Source of the DNA: Gammaproteobacteria bacterium
Lineage (GTDB): Bacteria > Pseudomonadota > Gammaproteobacteria > Steroidobacterales > Steroidobacteraceae
Length of the DNA stretch: 34,326 nucleotides
Assembly (NCBI GenBank): GCA_009692245.1
Contig: SHZN01000006.1
Span: 1 to 34,326 of the forward strand
Direction: 5' to 3'
Positions 2,286 through 13,857 of this stretch are shown piece after piece. A program made the position numbers and the translations under genes. Every line of letters begins with the position of its first letter. The first letter of the stretch is position 1. The notes under the pieces were generated by a model. The model was not told where the DNA came from. It searched no databases and was given only the letters and a program-made list of their open reading frames with translations.

Positions 2286-2303
2286 GCTGCAACTTTATGC
2301 AGA
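2265..2303 (+). promoter_or_regulatory. Tandem ARG boxes (ArgR operator)
   Basis: TGCATATTTATGCA (2267-2280) and TGCAACTTTATGCA (2288-2301). As 18-bp boxes (2265-2282 and 2286-2303) they are separated by 3 bp (21 bp centre to centre), the classic ArgR geometry. Confidence 0.85.
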
Positions 2304-2764
2304 CACTTAACCGGATCAACGGCGCACAGGCCGCCTCGGCACGCCGCGAGGCGCTCAGGCGCATCATCACCCGCTCGCCCGTCGGCCGGCAGCAGGATCT
2401 CGTGCGCCTGCTCGATCGGGCCGGCCACCACGCGACCCAGTCGAGCATCAGCCGCGACCTGCGCGAGCTCGGCGTGGCCAAGCAGGGCGACCGTTACGTT
2501 CTGCCGGACGAGTCGACGCCGGCACTCGATGATTTCGCGGCTGTGGCGGCATTTGTCCGCGACCTCAAAGCGGCCGGACCCTGCATGACGGTGATCCGTA
2601 CGACCGCGGGCGCCGCACAGAGTGTTGCAATCGTACTGGACCGTACTCAGTGGCCGGAGATCGTTGGCACGCTATCCGGCGACGACACGATCTTCGTTGC
2701 AACCCAGGGCGCCGCGGCCCAGCGCCGGCTGATCTCCCGCCTCCACCAAGAATTCCGGGTCTGA
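2297..2764 (+). CDS. argR: Arginine repressor ArgR
   Basis: N-terminal wHTH (QDLVRLLDRAGHHATQSSISRDLRELGVAK) and C-terminal TTAGAAQSVAIVLD...GTLSGDDTIFVAT. Confidence 0.92.
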   Translation: MQTLNRINGAQAASARREALRRIITRSPVGRQQDLVRLLDRAGHHATQSSISRDLRELGVAKQGDRYVLPDESTPALDDFAAVAAFVRDLKAAGPCMTVIRTTAGAAQSVAIVLDRTQWPEIVGTLSGDDTIFVATQGAAAQRRLISRLHQEFRV

Positions 2765-2772
2765 GTATCTCC

Positions 2773-4005
2773 ATGCCCAGTCTTTCACCGGGCGCCGAAG
2801 CGCCCATCCTGCTCGCTTTCTCCGGCGGTCTCGATACGTCGTTCTGCGTGCCCTGGCTCAAAGAGACCTACGGCCGCCCAGTCATCACCGTCACCGTGGA
2901 CACGGGTGGAATCGACGCAGCCGCCGCGCGGCAGCTCGCGGAGCGGGCGAATCTGCTCGGTGCCAGCGCACATCACCTGATCGATGCGCGTTACGACTAC
3001 TTTGATCGCGTGCTGCGCTGGCTGCTGATCGGCAATGTCCGCCGTGGACAGATGTATCCGCTCTGTGTCGGCGCCGAGCGCTCGATCCAGGCGCAGACGG
3101 TCGCGGCGATGGCGCGGAAACTCGGAACCAACACCGTTGCGCATGGCTGCACGGCGGCCGGCAACGATCAAGTGCGTTTCGAGGTCGCCCTGCGCACCCT
3201 CGCACCGGGACTCGAAATCCTGGCGCCTGTCCGCGACCAGGCATTCAAGCGTCCCGAGCAACTCAACTATCTTCAGGAGCGCAAGCTGCCGGTGCCGCCG
3301 CATGGCGCCGCGTACTCCACGAATCGCGGCCTCTGGGGTGTGACGATCGGTGGAAAGGAAACTCTGACATCGGCAGGCAGCATTCCGGAAGACGCCTGGG
3401 TGCTTTCGAAGGACGCATTCACGAAGCCGCCGGCGCCGCGGCGCATCGTTATCGGCTTTGAGTCCGGCACGCCCGTCTCGCTTGACGGCGAAAAGCTGGC
3501 GCCGGTCTCGTTGGTCGAGCGGCTCGAAACGGTGGCGGCGCCCTTCGGCATCGGCCGTGGCATCCACCTTGGCGACACGATCATCGGCACCAAGGGTCGC
3601 GTCGCTTTTGAAGCGCCGGCTGCGACGGTCCTGATCGACGCACACCGTGAGCTGGAGAAGCTCGTGTTGAGTGCGCGCCAGCAACGCATCAAGGATCTTG
3701 TTGCCGCCTCTTATGGCGACCTGGTTCACGAGGGGCAGAATCTCGACCCGGTCTGCCGGGACATCGAGGCGCTATTCGCCTCGTCGCAGGCACGCGTGAC
3801 CGGCAGCGTCACGATACTGCTGCGACCCGGCTCGGCCTTCGTCGAGGGCGTGGATTCGCCCTGGTCGCTGATGAAGGCCTCAAAGGGTGTGTACGGTGAA
3901 TCGGCCGGCGAATGGACCGCCGCTGACGCGCATGGGTTTTCCAAAATGGTTTCACTGCCAGGCGTGTTCTGGACACGCGCTGGCGGCGAGGGCCAAAAGC
4001 CATGA
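2773..4005 (+). CDS. argG: Argininosuccinate synthase
   Basis: LAFSGGLDTSFC ATP-binding motif, HGCTAAGNDQVRFE, GRGIHLGDTIIGTKGRVAFEAPA. ATG at 2773 chosen over the longer ORF start at 2650, which overlaps argR. Confidence 0.93.
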   Translation: MPSLSPGAEAPILLAFSGGLDTSFCVPWLKETYGRPVITVTVDTGGIDAAAARQLAERANLLGASAHHLIDARYDYFDRVLRWLLIGNVRRGQMYPLCVGAERSIQAQTVAAMARKLGTNTVAHGCTAAGNDQVRFEVALRTLAPGLEILAPVRDQAFKRPEQLNYLQERKLPVPPHGAAYSTNRGLWGVTIGGKETLTSAGSIPEDAWVLSKDAFTKPPAPRRIVIGFESGTPVSLDGEKLAPVSLVERLETVAAPFGIGRGIHLGDTIIGTKGRVAFEAPAATVLIDAHRELEKLVLSARQQRIKDLVAASYGDLVHEGQNLDPVCRDIEALFASSQARVTGSVTILLRPGSAFVEGVDSPWSLMKASKGVYGESAGEWTAADAHGFSKMVSLPGVFWTRAGGEGQKP

Positions 4006-5084
4006 TGAAGTCGATCATCGTCGACAAGATCGCCTCGGTCACGCAGGCCTGCGGGCTCTCGCACGAACTGCGGATCTCGACCGATATCCCCTGCGAGGAA
4101 GGTGTCGTGCTCGCGGTTGAAATCCTGACCGACAAGGCGCAGTACAACACGCTCGAGCTTACGAGCGGGCGCATGGCGAAGCTCGCGCGCGGCAATGTCG
4201 TGGTCGGCGCGCTCGGTCACCGCAAAGCGCTGTTCGGCTATTCGGGACACGTGCCGGAGAGACTTGCCGCAGGCGACGTGATCCATATGCTGAACATCGG
4301 CGGCGTGCTGGGCGTATGCGACTCCGCGAATCCCGAGAAGGGCCGGCCCTTCGACTGCCGTGTGCTCGGCTCTGTGCTGCATTTCCCCTACCTCGGCGAA
4401 CGCATCGGCGTGCCGGCGCGCGCCGGCATGCACAAGCTCGACCTCGCGGCCACGCTCGACACGGCGGGCGTGCCCGTTGTCGCGCTCGCAGGCAGCTGCA
4501 TGGAGGCCGGAAAAACTGCAGCGGCTTGCGCGATGATTTCGCGCATGCGACATCGCGGCCTGACGGTCGATGCATTCAAGGCGACCGGCGTCTCGCTGCG
4601 CCGTGACATCCTGGCAATGGAGGATTCCGGCGCGCGCCGCACTGCGATATTCACTGACTTCGGCGTCGTCACGACGACTTCGAAAAACGGGCCCGCGCTG
4701 ACGCGCACGATGCTGACCGAGATGGCGACCGGCAAGCCCGATGTCATCGTGTTTGAACTCGGCGACGGAATCCTTGGCGCCTATGGCGTCGAGGCCATAC
4801 TTGACGCGCCCGACATCAGGAAAGCGCTGACGGCGGTCGTGCTGTCGGCCAACGACCCGGTCGCTGCCTGGGGCGGCGTAAAGCTTCTCCGGGACCGCTT
4901 CGGCATCGAGCCCGCGGTCGTCACCGGGCCGTCCACGGACAATACCGTGGGGGTGGACATCATCCGCGAGCAACTGGGTGTCGCGGCTTTCAATGCGATG
5001 ACGAACGGGGCCGCGCTCGGTGACTGCGTGATCTCGACCGTTGGCCTCGACTCAGTTGCCCATTCCGGGGAACTCGAGCAATGA
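4002..5084 (+). CDS. P-loop protein of unknown function in the arginine operon (distantly DUF1611/DgcN- or dethiobiotin-synthetase-like)
   Basis: ATGA overlaps with both argG and argC. P-loop-like AGSCMEAGKTAAACAMISRMRHRGLTVDAFKATG, then FTDFGVVTTT and KPDVIVFELGDGILGAYG. Family call is a by-eye topology match only. Confidence 0.6.
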   Translation: MMKSIIVDKIASVTQACGLSHELRISTDIPCEEGVVLAVEILTDKAQYNTLELTSGRMAKLARGNVVVGALGHRKALFGYSGHVPERLAAGDVIHMLNIGGVLGVCDSANPEKGRPFDCRVLGSVLHFPYLGERIGVPARAGMHKLDLAATLDTAGVPVVALAGSCMEAGKTAAACAMISRMRHRGLTVDAFKATGVSLRRDILAMEDSGARRTAIFTDFGVVTTTSKNGPALTRTMLTEMATGKPDVIVFELGDGILGAYGVEAILDAPDIRKALTAVVLSANDPVAAWGGVKLLRDRFGIEPAVVTGPSTDNTVGVDIIREQLGVAAFNAMTNGAALGDCVISTVGLDSVAHSGELEQ

Positions 5085-6142
5085 GTGCCCGCACGCCGAC
5101 GATCATCCTTGGAGGCACCGGCTATGTCGCCGGCGAACTGCTGCGTCTCGTCCTCGGTCATCCGCGTCTTGCACTCGCCGCAATCGCCTCGGACAGCCAG
5201 CCCGGTGAGCCTGTCCAAAAGGCCTTTCCACATCTGGCCGCAGTCTGCGGCGAGCTGCAATACGTCTCGATCGGACAGGCAACGGAGTTGGCCGCGCAAC
5301 TGCCGTGTTCCGCAGTGCTTGCCGCCGCGCCGCATGGCGTTTCGCACAAACTCCTGGACGCTCTCCTCACCCGCGCAGCCGCCGCCGGCACGAAACCGAC
5401 GATCGTCGACATCTCCGCCGACTTCCGCTACGCGGATCTCGGCGAATACGAACGGGTCTACAAACACGCCCATGGTGCGCCCGCCCGCGCGCGTGAATTC
5501 ACCTGCGCGGTGCCGGAGCACCTGGACCGCGCACCGACGCCACACATGGCGCACCCAGGCTGCTTCTGCACCGCGACACTGCTCGCCTCCGTGCCGCTGC
5601 TGGCGCTCGATCTCGTCGAGCCGCAGATTTATGTTTCCGCGGTTACTGGCAGCACCGGCGCCGGTCGCAGCCCGATCGCCGGCACCCACCACCCGCAGCG
5701 TCACAGCGACTTCTACACCTACAACGCGCTGACCCACCGCCACGTGGCCGAAATTACGGCACTTGCACGCTCGGCCTCGGGCAAGGAAGGCCGCTTCGCA
5801 TTCGTGCCGCATTCCGGGCCATTCGCGCGCGGCATTCATGCCACGGTCCAGGCGAAACTGAAGAAGCCGCTCGACACGGCCGCTGTCATCGCGGCATTGC
5901 GCGGCTTTTACGCAGGCCGGCCATTCGTTCGCGTGCTCAACGAACCGCCGCGCTTGAAGGACGTCGTCGCGAGCAACTACGCGCATCTGTCGGCGGTCGC
6001 CGACGGCAATACGATCGTCGTGATGTCCGTCATCGATAATCTCGTCAAGGGCGCGGCCGGCGGCGCGCTGCAGTGGATGAATCGCCTGCTCGGCTTCGAT
6101 GAGACTGACGGGCTGACCACGCCCGCCCCGGGCTGGACCTGA
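5081..6142 (+). CDS. argC: N-acetyl-gamma-glutamyl-phosphate reductase
   Basis: GGTGYVAGELLRLVLGHP Rossmann start, HPGCFCTA active-site Cys, SAVTGSTGAGRSP, FVPHSGPFARGIHATV, VIDNLVKGAAGGALQWMN. Confidence 0.93.
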   Translation: MSARTPTIILGGTGYVAGELLRLVLGHPRLALAAIASDSQPGEPVQKAFPHLAAVCGELQYVSIGQATELAAQLPCSAVLAAAPHGVSHKLLDALLTRAAAAGTKPTIVDISADFRYADLGEYERVYKHAHGAPARAREFTCAVPEHLDRAPTPHMAHPGCFCTATLLASVPLLALDLVEPQIYVSAVTGSTGAGRSPIAGTHHPQRHSDFYTYNALTHRHVAEITALARSASGKEGRFAFVPHSGPFARGIHATVQAKLKKPLDTAAVIAALRGFYAGRPFVRVLNEPPRLKDVVASNYAHLSAVADGNTIVVMSVIDNLVKGAAGGALQWMNRLLGFDETDGLTTPAPGWT

Positions 6143-6143
6143 G

Positions 6144-7163
6144 ATGAAGAATTTCCTGGATCTCGCAGATTTCCCGCGCGACGAAATCGTCGAGCTTCTC
6201 GCGCTCGCGGAGCGCCTGCGTGAGCGGCCCGAGCCGAATGCGCTCAAGGGCCGCGTACTGGGCCTGCTGTTCTTCAACCCTTCGCTGCGGACGCTCGCCT
6301 CGATGCAGGTGGCAATGGCGCGCCTCGGCGGCGAGTCATTCGTCATCACGCCCGGTAGCGGCAGCTGGCAGCTTGAGACCCGCCTCGGCGTCACGATGAC
6401 CGGGAGCGCAGCGGAGCACATCCGCGAGGCTATCCCGGTGCTCGATTCCTATTGTGACGTGCTGGGTGTGCGTGCTTTTGCGGAAGGCTGCGATCTCGCC
6501 GCCGACCTCGCGGAACGCAACTTCACGAATATCGCATCGCTGTGCCGGCATCCGCTGATCAATCTTGAATCGGCGGTCAATCACCCCTGCCAGGCGCTCG
6601 CCGACTGGAAGACGCTCGATGATCTAAAGGTCCCGCGCCGCGGCCGCTTCGTGCTGTCCTGGGCCAACCATCCGCGTGCATTGCCGCTCGCCGTGCCGGC
6701 TGCCACGGTGCACATGGCGGCATTGCGCGGCATGGATGTCGTCGTATTGCGCCCGCCAGGATTTGAATTGCCCGATTCGATAATGGACAAGGCGCGGCGT
6801 GCCGCTGCCGGGTCGGGCGGGAGCGTCAGTGAAACCGACGACCGTGCTGCTGCCCTTGCTGGCGCACAGGTCGTCTATGCCAAGGAATGGGGATCGACGG
6901 AGCACTATGGCAACGCGGAAGCCGAGGCCCGGGCGCGCAGCGGTCTCGGTGACTGGATGGTCCAGGAGTCGTGGTTCCAGAAGGCCTCACCGGATTGCCA
7001 CCTGATGCATTGCCTGCCCGTGCGGCGTAACGTCGCGATCGCCGACGAGGTGCTCGACGGACCACGCAGCCGCGTGCTGGCACAGGCCCACAACCGCCTG
7101 GTCGTGCAGATGGCCGTGCTTTACCGCCTGCTCGGCGCCGCCCCCGCCGGCAGATTGCACTAA
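6144..7163 (+). CDS. argF': N-acylornithine carbamoyltransferase (ArgF'; AOTCase/SOTCase family, more SOTCase-like)
   Basis: FFNPSLRT, HPCQ, WANHPRALPLAVP and HCLPVRRN motifs of the N-acylornithine transcarbamylase subfamily rather than OTCase. Confidence 0.88.
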   Translation: MKNFLDLADFPRDEIVELLALAERLRERPEPNALKGRVLGLLFFNPSLRTLASMQVAMARLGGESFVITPGSGSWQLETRLGVTMTGSAAEHIREAIPVLDSYCDVLGVRAFAEGCDLAADLAERNFTNIASLCRHPLINLESAVNHPCQALADWKTLDDLKVPRRGRFVLSWANHPRALPLAVPAATVHMAALRGMDVVVLRPPGFELPDSIMDKARRAAAGSGGSVSETDDRAAALAGAQVVYAKEWGSTEHYGNAEAEARARSGLGDWMVQESWFQKASPDCHLMHCLPVRRNVAIADEVLDGPRSRVLAQAHNRLVVQMAVLYRLLGAAPAGRLH

Positions 7164-7182: not shown

Positions 7183-8121
7183 ATGGTGACGCACCGCATC
7201 GACCAGTCCGCCGTGATCGCCGCGCTGCGTGGCGCGGCACCTTACATCCGGCTTTACAAGGGCAAGATCTTCGTCATCAAGGCGGGTGGAGCCGTATTCG
7301 GCGACATCGCGGGTACGCGCGGCCTGATCGAACAGATCGCGATCCTGCATCACTTCGGGATCCGCGTCGTGCTGGTGCACGGCGGCGGGCCGCAGCTCGA
7401 TGAAATGCAGCGCGCGCTTGGCATCGAGCCGCGGATGGTGCGTGGACGCCGCATCACCGATGACAAGTCCATCGACGCGACGATGATGGTGCTCAATGGA
7501 CTGATAAACACGCGGATCCTCGCGATCTGCCGCGAGGTCGGCATCAATGCCGTGGGTCTTTCGGGTGTGGACGCAGGACTTGTGCGCGCCATTCGCCGCC
7601 CGCCAGTGAAGGTGGATGGCGAGTCCGTGGACTATGGCTATGTCGGTGACATCATCTCGATCGACACCACCGTGCTGTGCAAGCAACTCGATGCAGGCCT
7701 GATGCCTGTCGTCAGCCCGTTGTCGGCGGACGATTCCGGCTGCGTTCTGAATATCAACGCAGATACCGTGGCTGCGTCGATCGGTGCGGCGCTCGGCGCC
7801 GAGAAGCTGATTATCTGCACCGGCGCGGCCGGTATCCTGGAACGCCTGAAGGACCCGCACTCACTCGTATCCTTCACTGATCTCGCCGGCCTCAAGCGCC
7901 TCGAGCAGGCCGGCAGCCTCGAAGGCGGCATGCTTCCGAAGGCCTCGGCAATCGAAGCCGCAATCCGGGGCGGCGTGCGGCGCGTGCACGTGATCTCCTA
8001 TCGAGTGCGCGACAGCGTGTTGGCGGAGGTGTTCACGAACGAGGGCACAGGCACGATGATTGTCGCCGACATCAAGGCGATGACACCGGCCGAACAGCAT
8101 CCGGAAGCGGTCACCTCGTGA
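7183..8121 (+). CDS. argB: Acetylglutamate kinase (amino-acid kinase fold)
   Basis: FVIKAGGAVFGD, VLVHGGGPQLDEMQRALGIEPRMVRGRRITDD, NINADTVAASIGAALGAEKLI. 312 aa, without a fused GNAT domain. Confidence 0.92.
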   Translation: MVTHRIDQSAVIAALRGAAPYIRLYKGKIFVIKAGGAVFGDIAGTRGLIEQIAILHHFGIRVVLVHGGGPQLDEMQRALGIEPRMVRGRRITDDKSIDATMMVLNGLINTRILAICREVGINAVGLSGVDAGLVRAIRRPPVKVDGESVDYGYVGDIISIDTTVLCKQLDAGLMPVVSPLSADDSGCVLNINADTVAASIGAALGAEKLIICTGAAGILERLKDPHSLVSFTDLAGLKRLEQAGSLEGGMLPKASAIEAAIRGGVRRVHVISYRVRDSVLAEVFTNEGTGTMIVADIKAMTPAEQHPEAVTS

Positions 8122-9320
8122 GCAGGCTCTGGGACAAGGGCGCGTCACTCGATCGTCGCGTGCTGGAGTTCACGGCCGGCGAGGATCATGCACTCGACGA
8201 TCGACTGGTCGCTTACGACGTGCGCGCATCGATCGCCCACGCCGAAATGCTGGCCGAAGTGCGCCTGCTGTCTGCCGAGGACCTGGGGAAGATCCGCGAC
8301 GGCCTGATCGAGATTGGCGCGGAACATTCGCGCGGCGAATGGCGCGTGCCGCTCGAACAGGAAGACGGGCAGACCGCACTTGAGGCGCGGCTCACGGTGC
8401 GCATCGGGCAGGCAGGAGCGCGCATCCACCTCGGCCGCTCCCGCAACGACCAGGTGCTCGCAGCCTTGCGGCTCTACATGCGCGATGCCGTCGCGGGCCT
8501 GGCGGCCGCCGCGGATGCGGTGGCCGACGCGTTGCTCGCAATCGCCGCACGCCAGGGTGAAGTTGTATTGCCCGGCTATACGCACATGCAGCAGGCGATG
8601 CCGAGCTCCGTCGACTGGTGGGCGCGCGGCTTCGCTGCCGAAATCCGCGACGACGCCGAGGGCGTGCGCCAGACGCTACGCCGCATCAACCGCAATCCGC
8701 TCGGGTCTGCGGCGGGTTTCGGCACGCCCAATCTGCCAATCTCGCGCGAAGCGACGCGGCAACGGCTCGGATTCGATGACGTGCAGGAACCGGTCACTTC
8801 GGTCCAGCTTTCACGCGGCAAGGCGGAATCCCAAGTCCTGTTCGAGGTGACGCTGCTGATGCAGGATCTCGGCCGGCTGGCGACGGATCTGCTCCTGTTC
8901 TACACGCGCGAATTCGCCTTTGTCGAATTGCCGCCAGAGATGACCACCGGCTCATCGATCATGCCGCAGAAACGGAATCCCGACGTCTTCGAGCTGATCC
9001 GCGGACGCTCCGCGACTGCGCTTGCCTGCCTCGTCGAGGTCCTGAGTGTTTACTCACGCCTGCCATCCGGGTACAACCGGGACTTGCAGCTCATCAAGGC
9101 GCCGCTGTTTCGCGGTATCGACGTCTGCTCGCAGGTGCTGGCGGTACTGCCGGCGGCACTCGAGGGCCTGCGGTTCCAGCCGGAAAATATCCGGCTCGAC
9201 CCTTCGATACAGGCCGCGGCGCGTGCAAACGAGCTGGTGGTCAAGGAAGGCATTCCGTTCCGCGACGCCTATCGCCGTGTTGCCGAAGAGATCGAAAAGG
9301 AAAGCGGAGGTCAATCATGA
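8118..9320 (+). CDS. argH: Argininosuccinate lyase
   Basis: Signature GSSIMPQKRNPD, HLGRSRNDQVLAALRLYMRD, YTHMQQAMP. GTG start overlapping the argB stop. Confidence 0.94.
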   Translation: MSRLWDKGASLDRRVLEFTAGEDHALDDRLVAYDVRASIAHAEMLAEVRLLSAEDLGKIRDGLIEIGAEHSRGEWRVPLEQEDGQTALEARLTVRIGQAGARIHLGRSRNDQVLAALRLYMRDAVAGLAAAADAVADALLAIAARQGEVVLPGYTHMQQAMPSSVDWWARGFAAEIRDDAEGVRQTLRRINRNPLGSAAGFGTPNLPISREATRQRLGFDDVQEPVTSVQLSRGKAESQVLFEVTLLMQDLGRLATDLLLFYTREFAFVELPPEMTTGSSIMPQKRNPDVFELIRGRSATALACLVEVLSVYSRLPSGYNRDLQLIKAPLFRGIDVCSQVLAVLPAALEGLRFQPENIRLDPSIQAAARANELVVKEGIPFRDAYRRVAEEIEKESGGQS

Positions 9321-12855: not shown

Positions 12856-13857
12856 ATGCTGTTCCTCGATCGCCAGGACGTCATCGCGCTGTTGCCGATT
12901 GCAGATTGCATCACCGCGGTCGAGCGCGCCTTTACCGCCCATGCGGCGGGGGAATTACCGATCACCCCCGGCGTTCTCGGCGCGCACGTCGCAGGCGGCG
13001 GATTCCACATCAAGACCGCAGTTCTGGGTTCCGGTTCCGGCTACTTCGCCGCGAAGATCAATGCGAACTTCCCTGGCAATCCAGAGCGGCACGGGCTGCC
13101 TGCGATCCAGGGCATGATCGGCCTGTTCGACACCGCCAATGGCCGCCCGCTCGCACTCCTCGACTCGATCGAGATCACGACGCTGCGCACGGCAGCGGCC
13201 AGTGCGATCGCGGCGCGGAATCTCGCCCGCGCCGATGCTTCGACACTTGCGATCTGCGGTTACGGCAACCAGGGCCGCGCTCACCTGCGCGCCCTGCTCC
13301 AGGTGCGGAAGTTGCGGCGTGCGCTGGCCTACGATCGCGACCCATCGCGCGCGGAGATATTTGCGCGGGAAATGGCGCCGGAATCCGGCATCGAGATAGC
13401 GCCGACAGACAATCTTGCTGCCGCGGTGCAAGACTGCGATATCTGCGTCACCTGTACGCCGGCGCGCGGGGCATTCATTCGCGTCGAACATTTGCGACCC
13501 GGCCAGTTCTTCGCGGCCGTCGGCGCCGACAGTGAAGGGAAGCAGGAATTCGAACCCGAGGTGTTGCGCCGCGCGATCGTCGTTGCCGATATCGTCACGC
13601 AGGCCGTCACGATGGGTGAGCTGCAGCATGCGATCGCGGCGGGCCTGATGACCGCCGCCGATGTGCACGCCGATCTTGGGCAGATCGTGAGCGGCCAGCG
13701 CCCCGGGCGCACATCCGAAGACCAGATATTCATCTTTGACAGCACCGGGACGGCGTTGCAGGACGTCGCAGCGGCGGCAATGGTGTACGAGCGTGCTTTG
13801 CAGGCCGGTCGTGGTCTGAAGCTGTCACTGACCGGCCGGGGTGAATCCGGTGTTTGA
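12856..13857 (+). CDS. Ornithine cyclodeaminase / mu-crystallin family protein
   Basis: HIKTAVLGSG...FAAKINANFPGN, GLIGLFDTANGRPLALLDSIEITTLRTAAASAIAARNLA-type motifs, GYGNQGRAHLRALLQVR Rossmann motif. Confidence 0.88.
   Translation: MLFLDRQDVIALLPIADCITAVERAFTAHAAGELPITPGVLGAHVAGGGFHIKTAVLGSGSGYFAAKINANFPGNPERHGLPAIQGMIGLFDTANGRPLALLDSIEITTLRTAAASAIAARNLARADASTLAICGYGNQGRAHLRALLQVRKLRRALAYDRDPSRAEIFAREMAPESGIEIAPTDNLAAAVQDCDICVTCTPARGAFIRVEHLRPGQFFAAVGADSEGKQEFEPEVLRRAIVVADIVTQAVTMGELQHAIAAGLMTAADVHADLGQIVSGQRPGRTSEDQIFIFDSTGTALQDVAAAAMVYERALQAGRGLKLSLTGRGESGV

Follow-up and report, generated by a model that had tools for sequence, protein, structure and literature searches.

The window, by which we mean the whole analyzed stretch of 34,326 nucleotides, contains an arginine biosynthesis operon, and matches to Pfam and NCBIfam models gave its gene order as argR-argG-X-argC-transcarbamylase-argB-argH, where X denotes a gene encoding a P-loop protein. 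The genes of this operon are as follows.

2297..2764, + strand: argR
2773..4005, + strand: argG, start placed at the ATG at 2773 (the mechanical ORF begins at 2650)
4002..5084, + strand: gene X, candidate N-succinyl(acyl)glutamate synthase, ATG start, 360-aa P-loop protein
5081..6142, + strand: argC, N-acyl-gamma-glutamyl-phosphate reductase
6144..7163, + strand: knotted acyl-ornithine transcarbamylase, best read as N-succinylornithine transcarbamylase (SOTC), although its NCBIfam name is that of the acetyl form
7183..8121, + strand: argB, stand-alone N-acylglutamate kinase without a NAGS domain
8118..9320, + strand: argH

The reading frame of X was present with the strand, start codon and length given in the preliminary description, and the translational coupling proposed there was also found in the DNA, where X overlaps by 4 bp (ATGA) both argG at its 5′ end (argG stop codon at 4003-4005) and argC at its 3′ end (argC start at 5081). 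The substitutions between X and five orthologs are located chiefly at third codon positions, which indicates that the frame is coding; in the comparison with locus L019, 24, 7, and 131 substitutions were counted at codon positions 1, 2, and 3, respectively, corresponding to 120 synonymous and 27 non-synonymous codons. An antisense ORF at 3726-4973, which is open in several relatives, was rejected, because it is explained by the high GC content and the substitutions track the frame of X. The gene content agreed with the earlier view that ArgB stands alone in this operon, and no argA, argJ, GNAT, or M20 gene was found among the genes of the operon. Because the transcarbamylase belongs to the acyl-ornithine type, the pathway is implied to be acylated as far as citrulline. 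The recognized genes cover all steps of arginine synthesis except the acylation of glutamate and the deacylation, and X is the sole unassigned gene. A gene of the ornithine cyclodeaminase/mu-crystallin family is located about 3.5 kb downstream of the operon (12856-13857).

The argR-argG-X-argC-(argD)-transcarbamylase-argB-argH operon is conserved across the Steroidobacterales (about 80 loci). The 80 orthologs of X that were retrieved share 74–93% identity and come nearly all from MAGs of Steroidobacteraceae and related Gammaproteobacteria, while one is from Povalibacter uvarum. Where the contig permits, nearly all of them are found in the order argR-argG-X-argC, a gene of about 1.1 kb, and transcarbamylase-argB-argH; the extra gene in L042 encodes an argD-family aminotransferase. 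This aminotransferase gene, present in most relatives, is missing from the window operon (5081-7163), in which the gap between argC and the transcarbamylase gene is 1 bp. Two more distant gammaproteobacteria (G040 and G118), whose X is 45% identical, have the rearranged order transcarbamylase-argB-argH-argG-X-argC. A sister family, X′, which has 27–33% identity to X and a profile probability of 100%, occurs sporadically in Gammaproteobacteria and in one further class. In two bacterial classes, a branch of X′ is located directly downstream of an M20 deacylase gene and often of a flavin-reductase-like gene (L178:7399-10246, L179:6913-9125, L181:6666-9612, and L219:7133-9967), with the identity of the M20 and flavin-reductase genes established by Pfam in L178 only and deduced in L219 from gene sizes and order. 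This neighborhood is possibly an N-acyl amino acid operon, which is no evidence regarding X itself. The X′ gene of G257 (L180:7219-8259) is interrupted by a TAA codon in frame and is possibly a pseudogene.

The distribution of X was compared with that of known synthases in 59 genomes of the order, in which X was called at E < 1e-100 and the NAGS domain was defined by PF04768. X together with stand-alone ArgB (about 312 aa) was found in 43 of the 59 genomes and fused ArgB-NAGS in 11, while no genome contained both; the five genomes that lack X and PF04768 also show no match to ArgB. This exclusion corresponds to a Fisher p value of about 1e-11 by genome and of 0.001 by family (7 families with X to 5 with fused NAGS), with the caveat that the X/SOTC/stand-alone-ArgB operon could be one inherited block and the 54 genomes are not independent events. 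None of the 43 X genomes contains PF04768 or reaches the cut-off for ArgA, and hence a hidden ArgA or fused NAGS was rejected; in the single-contig X genomes G266, G274, G277, and G281 the TIGR01890 matches are limited to their ArgB. Besides the MAG of the window, none of the other 58 genomes of the order, 42 of them with X, contains ArgJ. This MAG, which is 76% complete, has a 98-aa C-terminal fragment of ArgJ (L157:5226-5522, G000:C107), located terminally on a 5.5-kb contig that also carries pilin- and prepilin-peptidase-like ORFs, and the absence of ArgJ from the 58 other genomes suggests that the fragment is probably a contamination. Hence, with this fragment aside, a genome-wide search found X where ArgB is stand-alone and where ArgA, ArgJ, and fused NAGS are absent. 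In the 11 fused-NAGS genomes the operon, read where the contig allows, is of the Xanthomonas type: acetylornithine transcarbamylase-argG-M20-argBA-argC-argH. The comparative genomics strongly backs the proposal of the preliminary description that X is a non-homologous N-acylglutamate synthase, with the activity itself predicted from gene content and sequence; X very probably acylates glutamate, in either the acetyl or the succinyl form.

The P-loop domain of X contains four conserved motifs, the first three of which had been quoted in the preliminary description.

4491..4517, + strand: Walker A motif GSCMEAGKT, residues 164-172; G164, M167, G170, K171, and T172 are invariant in 17 diverse orthologs
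4578..4607, + strand: KATGVSLRRD, residues 193-202; K193, T195, G196, R201, and D202 are invariant
4650..4664, + strand: FTDFG, residues 217-221; F217, D219, and G221 are invariant
4752..4769, + strand: FELGDG, residues 251-256; E252, G254, D255, and G256 are invariant

The FELGDG motif appears to be placed like EGQGS of DUF1611 and EGAGG of BioD, and the latter site is presumably its counterpart, with the invariant glutamate at the place of the BioD metal ligand. No model in Pfam or NCBIfam claims X, the P-loop matches being all sub-threshold, and searches of PDB sequences with X and with its profile returned nothing meaningful. In particular, X has no match to PF01960 (ArgJ), PF00583, or PF04768, and no GNAT fold. 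The structure predicted by AlphaFold2 from 55 orthologs had a mean pLDDT of 79.7, with high confidence for most of the P-loop domain (about residues 150-350) and weaker confidence for the N-terminal domain. The comparison of the model by Foldseek with PDB structures gave dethiobiotin synthetase (BioD) as the best match (E 4e-6), followed by many SIMIBI P-loop proteins; HypB and FtsY were among the matches, as were the DUF1611 protein 2OBN (E 1.3e-4) and DgcN (7XRJ, titled N-acetyltransferase, E 1.6e-4). The P-loop domain aligns to 2OBN and 7XRJ over about 240 columns. The DUF1611 fold consists of an N-terminal Rossmann-like domain and a P-loop domain. The modeled N-terminal domain of X, which is of lower confidence, is strand-rich and weakly resembles a beta-barrel, with weak matches to EF-G_D2 in 6 of 17 family members (E up to 0.1, best 0.0045). 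Membership of X in DUF1611 was considered and rejected: PF07755 does not match X of the window up to E=1, the hhalign probability is 12% over 44 columns of the P-loop only, and the modeled N-terminal domain looks different. Weak PF07755 matches were seen in 8 of 17 members of the X family (best E 5.5e-4). Thus, the tie to DUF1611 and DgcN suggested earlier holds at the level of the fold and the P-loop, but not as family membership, and X is best regarded as representing a new family, whose P-loop domain is BioD-like and which may work like DgcN. Two X-bearing genomes (G017 and G167) also contain true DUF1611 genes, and the one in G017 adjoins an enolase-superfamily gene (L187:5549-7553) in an arrangement that, judged from sequence, is DgcN-DgcA-like. 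No DgcA-type N-acylglutamate racemase gene was met beside X, which sits in arg operons.

The identity of the acyl group was assessed from the transcarbamylase, in which Glu92, Asn185, and Lys302 are typical of the N-acetylornithine enzyme (AOTC), while A/S/P/V/Q, P, and V/I/E at these positions are typical of SOTC (Shi, Allewell and Tuchman, PMC4581275). The numbering is that of Xanthomonas AOTC, and the register was fixed by AOTC chains in the PDB that differ at the residue (GDTAEH, GDTSEH, and GDTVEH versus GDTEEH). The corresponding residues in the window are as follows.

6411..6413, + strand: Ala90, SOTC signature (AOTC Glu92 position)
6684..6686, + strand: Pro181, SOTC signature (AOTC Asn185 position)
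7035..7037, + strand: Ala298 instead of Lys (AOTC Lys302 position), yet outside the published SOTC V/I/E

The enzyme of the window has therefore the SOTC residues at positions 92 and 185, but not V/I/E at 302. The signature in X operons is A-P-A in 72 and A-P-V in three, while P-P-E and V-P-E occur in the two distant gammaproteobacteria. At position 92 alanine was found in all 75 readable Steroidobacterales X operons, proline in G040, and valine in G118, so that glutamate occurs in none of the 77 readable operons; position 185 is proline in every readable X operon, and position 302 is alanine, valine, or glutamate, with lysine in no readable one. In contrast, the signature of the fused-NAGS operons is E-N-K in eight of nine and E-N-Q in one. 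Because the X operons carry the SOTC signature and the fused-NAGS operons that of the acetylornithine enzyme, the acyl group is probably succinyl. The transcarbamylase of the window is best read, from these residues, as N-succinylornithine transcarbamylase, so that the missing step likely yields N-succinylglutamate. The choice between acetyl and succinyl, left open in the preliminary description, is thus tilted toward succinyl, and X is probably the N-succinylglutamate synthase of the arginine pathway in this organism.

It is unlikely that X is instead an N-acetylglutamate synthase, with the transcarbamylase signature misleading or the pathway promiscuous. Such a role would agree with the matches of ArgB and ArgC of the window to acetyl-pathway models, with the N-acetyltransferase activity of the distant relative DgcN, and with the above-cut-off score of the transcarbamylase (6144-7163) against NCBIfam NF003384, N-acetylornithine carbamoyltransferase. 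However, NCBIfam does not separate AOTC from SOTC, and the score of a succinyl-type enzyme against NF003384 means that automatic annotation will misname it. The residues at positions 92 and 185, which differ between all readable X operons and all nine fused-NAGS operons (Glu and Asn), argue against the acetyl form, and the succinyl form agrees with DapE being the sole deacylase candidate.

The deacylation step was analyzed in the M20 proteins of X genomes. A dedicated ArgE was rejected, because the complete X genomes examined keep one ArgE/DapE-type M20 protein, which is DapE: the single M20 protein of G258 is DapE, far over the cut-off, while G281 contains one such protein, also DapE far over the cut-off, and one aminopeptidase-like protein. 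As DapE strips succinyl groups from an amino acid, a second role of this enzyme beside lysine synthesis, the removal of succinyl from N-succinylcitrulline, is plausible by analogy. The enzyme proposed for this deacylation in Bacteroides is likewise distantly related to DapE (PMC7311316). The dapD and dapE genes are adjacent in the genome of the window (L189:3662-5741, G000:C30).

The preliminary description had also considered X for the deacylation of acylcitrulline. If X were the deacylase of the pathway, acting on N-succinylcitrulline or N-acylornithine, glutamate would be acylated by an unrecognized GNAT. The operon lacks both a synthase and a deacylase, and fused-NAGS operons have an M20 gene beside argBA; moreover, all X genomes examined contain GNATs, with 5-12 PF00583 proteins each, one of which might conceivably acylate glutamate, as the GNAT ArgA2/BT3761 does in Bacteroidetes. 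On the other hand, when the PF00583 proteins from seven X genomes were clustered by reciprocal hits, which was rough in that some clusters chain different GNATs, one RimI-containing group was present in all seven and the other groups were patchy, so that no further clear GNAT ortholog group emerged and a conserved GNAT as the actual synthase was rejected. In addition, an amide hydrolase would not be expected to have a BioD-like P-loop fold and an intact Walker A motif, and DapE is available for the step. Further evidence was provided by G541, from another class of the phylum, in which X (72% identical) is part of an argR-X-argC-argB cassette (L218:7089-10739; GC around the X locus 48%), while an ordinary argG-argF-argH cluster, whose ornithine carbamoyltransferase scores over the cut-off, is located elsewhere. 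In G541 a combined query detected neither ArgJ nor a second ArgB/ArgA-type kinase nor AOTC/SOTC; the absence of ArgJ is meaningful, because the ArgJ part of the query recovers ArgJ structures from several phyla (E 5e-11 to 1e-6). The cassette, which was apparently transferred horizontally, shows that X travels, separately from the transcarbamylase, with the enzymes acting after the acylation of glutamate. A function linked solely to acylcitrulline is thereby disfavored, while an acylornithine deacylase is still compatible with the cassette. Taken with the fold and DapE, a deacylase role for X is quite improbable.

Two further roles are, if anything, slightly less probable still. X as an ArgJ-like transacylase, returning the acyl group from acylcitrulline or acylornithine to glutamate, would close the two gaps by a single gene and account for the lack of a dedicated deacylase in the operon, but X has no ArgJ-type features, its invariant Walker A and KxTG...RD motifs suggest the use of a nucleotide or CoA, and the cycle would still need a priming synthase. 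An accessory or regulatory function (e.g., carrier, chaperone, or feedback regulator) is equally doubtful: metallochaperones and targeting GTPases belong to the SIMIBI class, and HypB and FtsY match the fold, but the strict exclusion with the fused NAGS domain, the absence of X from genomes without ArgB, and the transfer of X together with argC and argB speak against such a function.

In the proposed pathway, X would succinylate L-glutamate at its amino group, the resulting N-succinylglutamate would be turned into N-succinylornithine by ArgB, ArgC, and ArgD, and SOTC would make N-succinylcitrulline, from which a desuccinylase, probably the DapE common to lysine synthesis, would take off the succinyl group before ArgG and ArgH complete arginine. 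The donor could be succinyl-CoA, by analogy with the acetyl-CoA that the distantly similar DgcN reportedly uses on D-glutamate, or succinate and ATP, in which case the P-loop would phosphorylate a carboxylate in the manner of BioD-fold ligases. We consider the odds of the two donors about even, as the intact Walker A GKT and the invariant glutamate placed like the BioD metal ligand are as compatible with an ATP-dependent ligase as with a CoA transferase. More tentatively, X might be the founder of an enzyme family of BioD-like ATP-dependent N-acyl ligases, which would convert succinate, glutamate, and ATP into N-succinyl-L-glutamate in an order-wide succinylated pathway that shares DapE.

To our knowledge, several solutions to the first step of arginine synthesis have evolved, namely ArgA, ArgJ, fused NAGS, S-NAGS, C-NAGS, ArgA2, and LysW/ArgX, all of them so far GNATs, enzymes of the ArgJ type, or systems with a carrier protein. 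A P-loop enzyme would add another one that is unrelated to these. If the proposal is correct, the succinylated arginine pathway, characterized in Bacteroidetes, would extend to Gammaproteobacteria, the annotation gap that makes the order look unable to start arginine synthesis would be filled, and the routine naming of its transcarbamylase would be corrected. It would also suggest a testable function for the wider set of unnamed X′ proteins, one branch of which lies beside M20 deacylases. In the literature covered, which omits most subscription journals, neither X nor an N-acylglutamate synthase of the P-loop type was found to be named.

Compared with known systems, X shares with DgcN and other DUF1611 proteins (PF07755; 7XRJ, 2OBN, and 2G0T) the motif order P-loop, TG..., DF..., E.x.G, and with DgcN (Foldseek E about 1e-4) the proposed N-acyl transfer to glutamate. 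It differs in having GKT where the aligned DUF1611 sequences have GK[KR], in its modeled N-terminal domain, and in its likely substrate, L-glutamate instead of D-glutamate. The P-loop enzymes BioD, MobB, and CbiA are the closest in fold in the PDB and likewise have an intact Walker A ending in GKT, but they belong to a different pathway and show no sequence match above family cut-offs, and X adds an N-terminal domain of about 150 residues. Fused ArgB-NAGS of the Xanthomonas type (PF04768), which is found in X-less families of the same order, ArgA, and ArgJ catalyze the same first step, yet they are not homologous to X and use acetyl, where X would use succinyl. The closest functional parallel is with Bacteroidetes, where the first step has been assigned to the GNAT ArgA2/BT3761, an N-succinylglutamate synthase (PMC9026213, PMC7311316). 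The proposed reaction, the link to SOTC, and the place in the pathway are the same for X and ArgA2, while the GNAT and P-loop folds are non-homologous. The succinylated pathway of Bacteroides similarly has SOTC, a stand-alone ArgB, and a proposed DapE-like desuccinylase, whereas in the gammaproteobacterium studied here the genes form one operon, X would replace ArgA2, and the desuccinylase is probably DapE itself.
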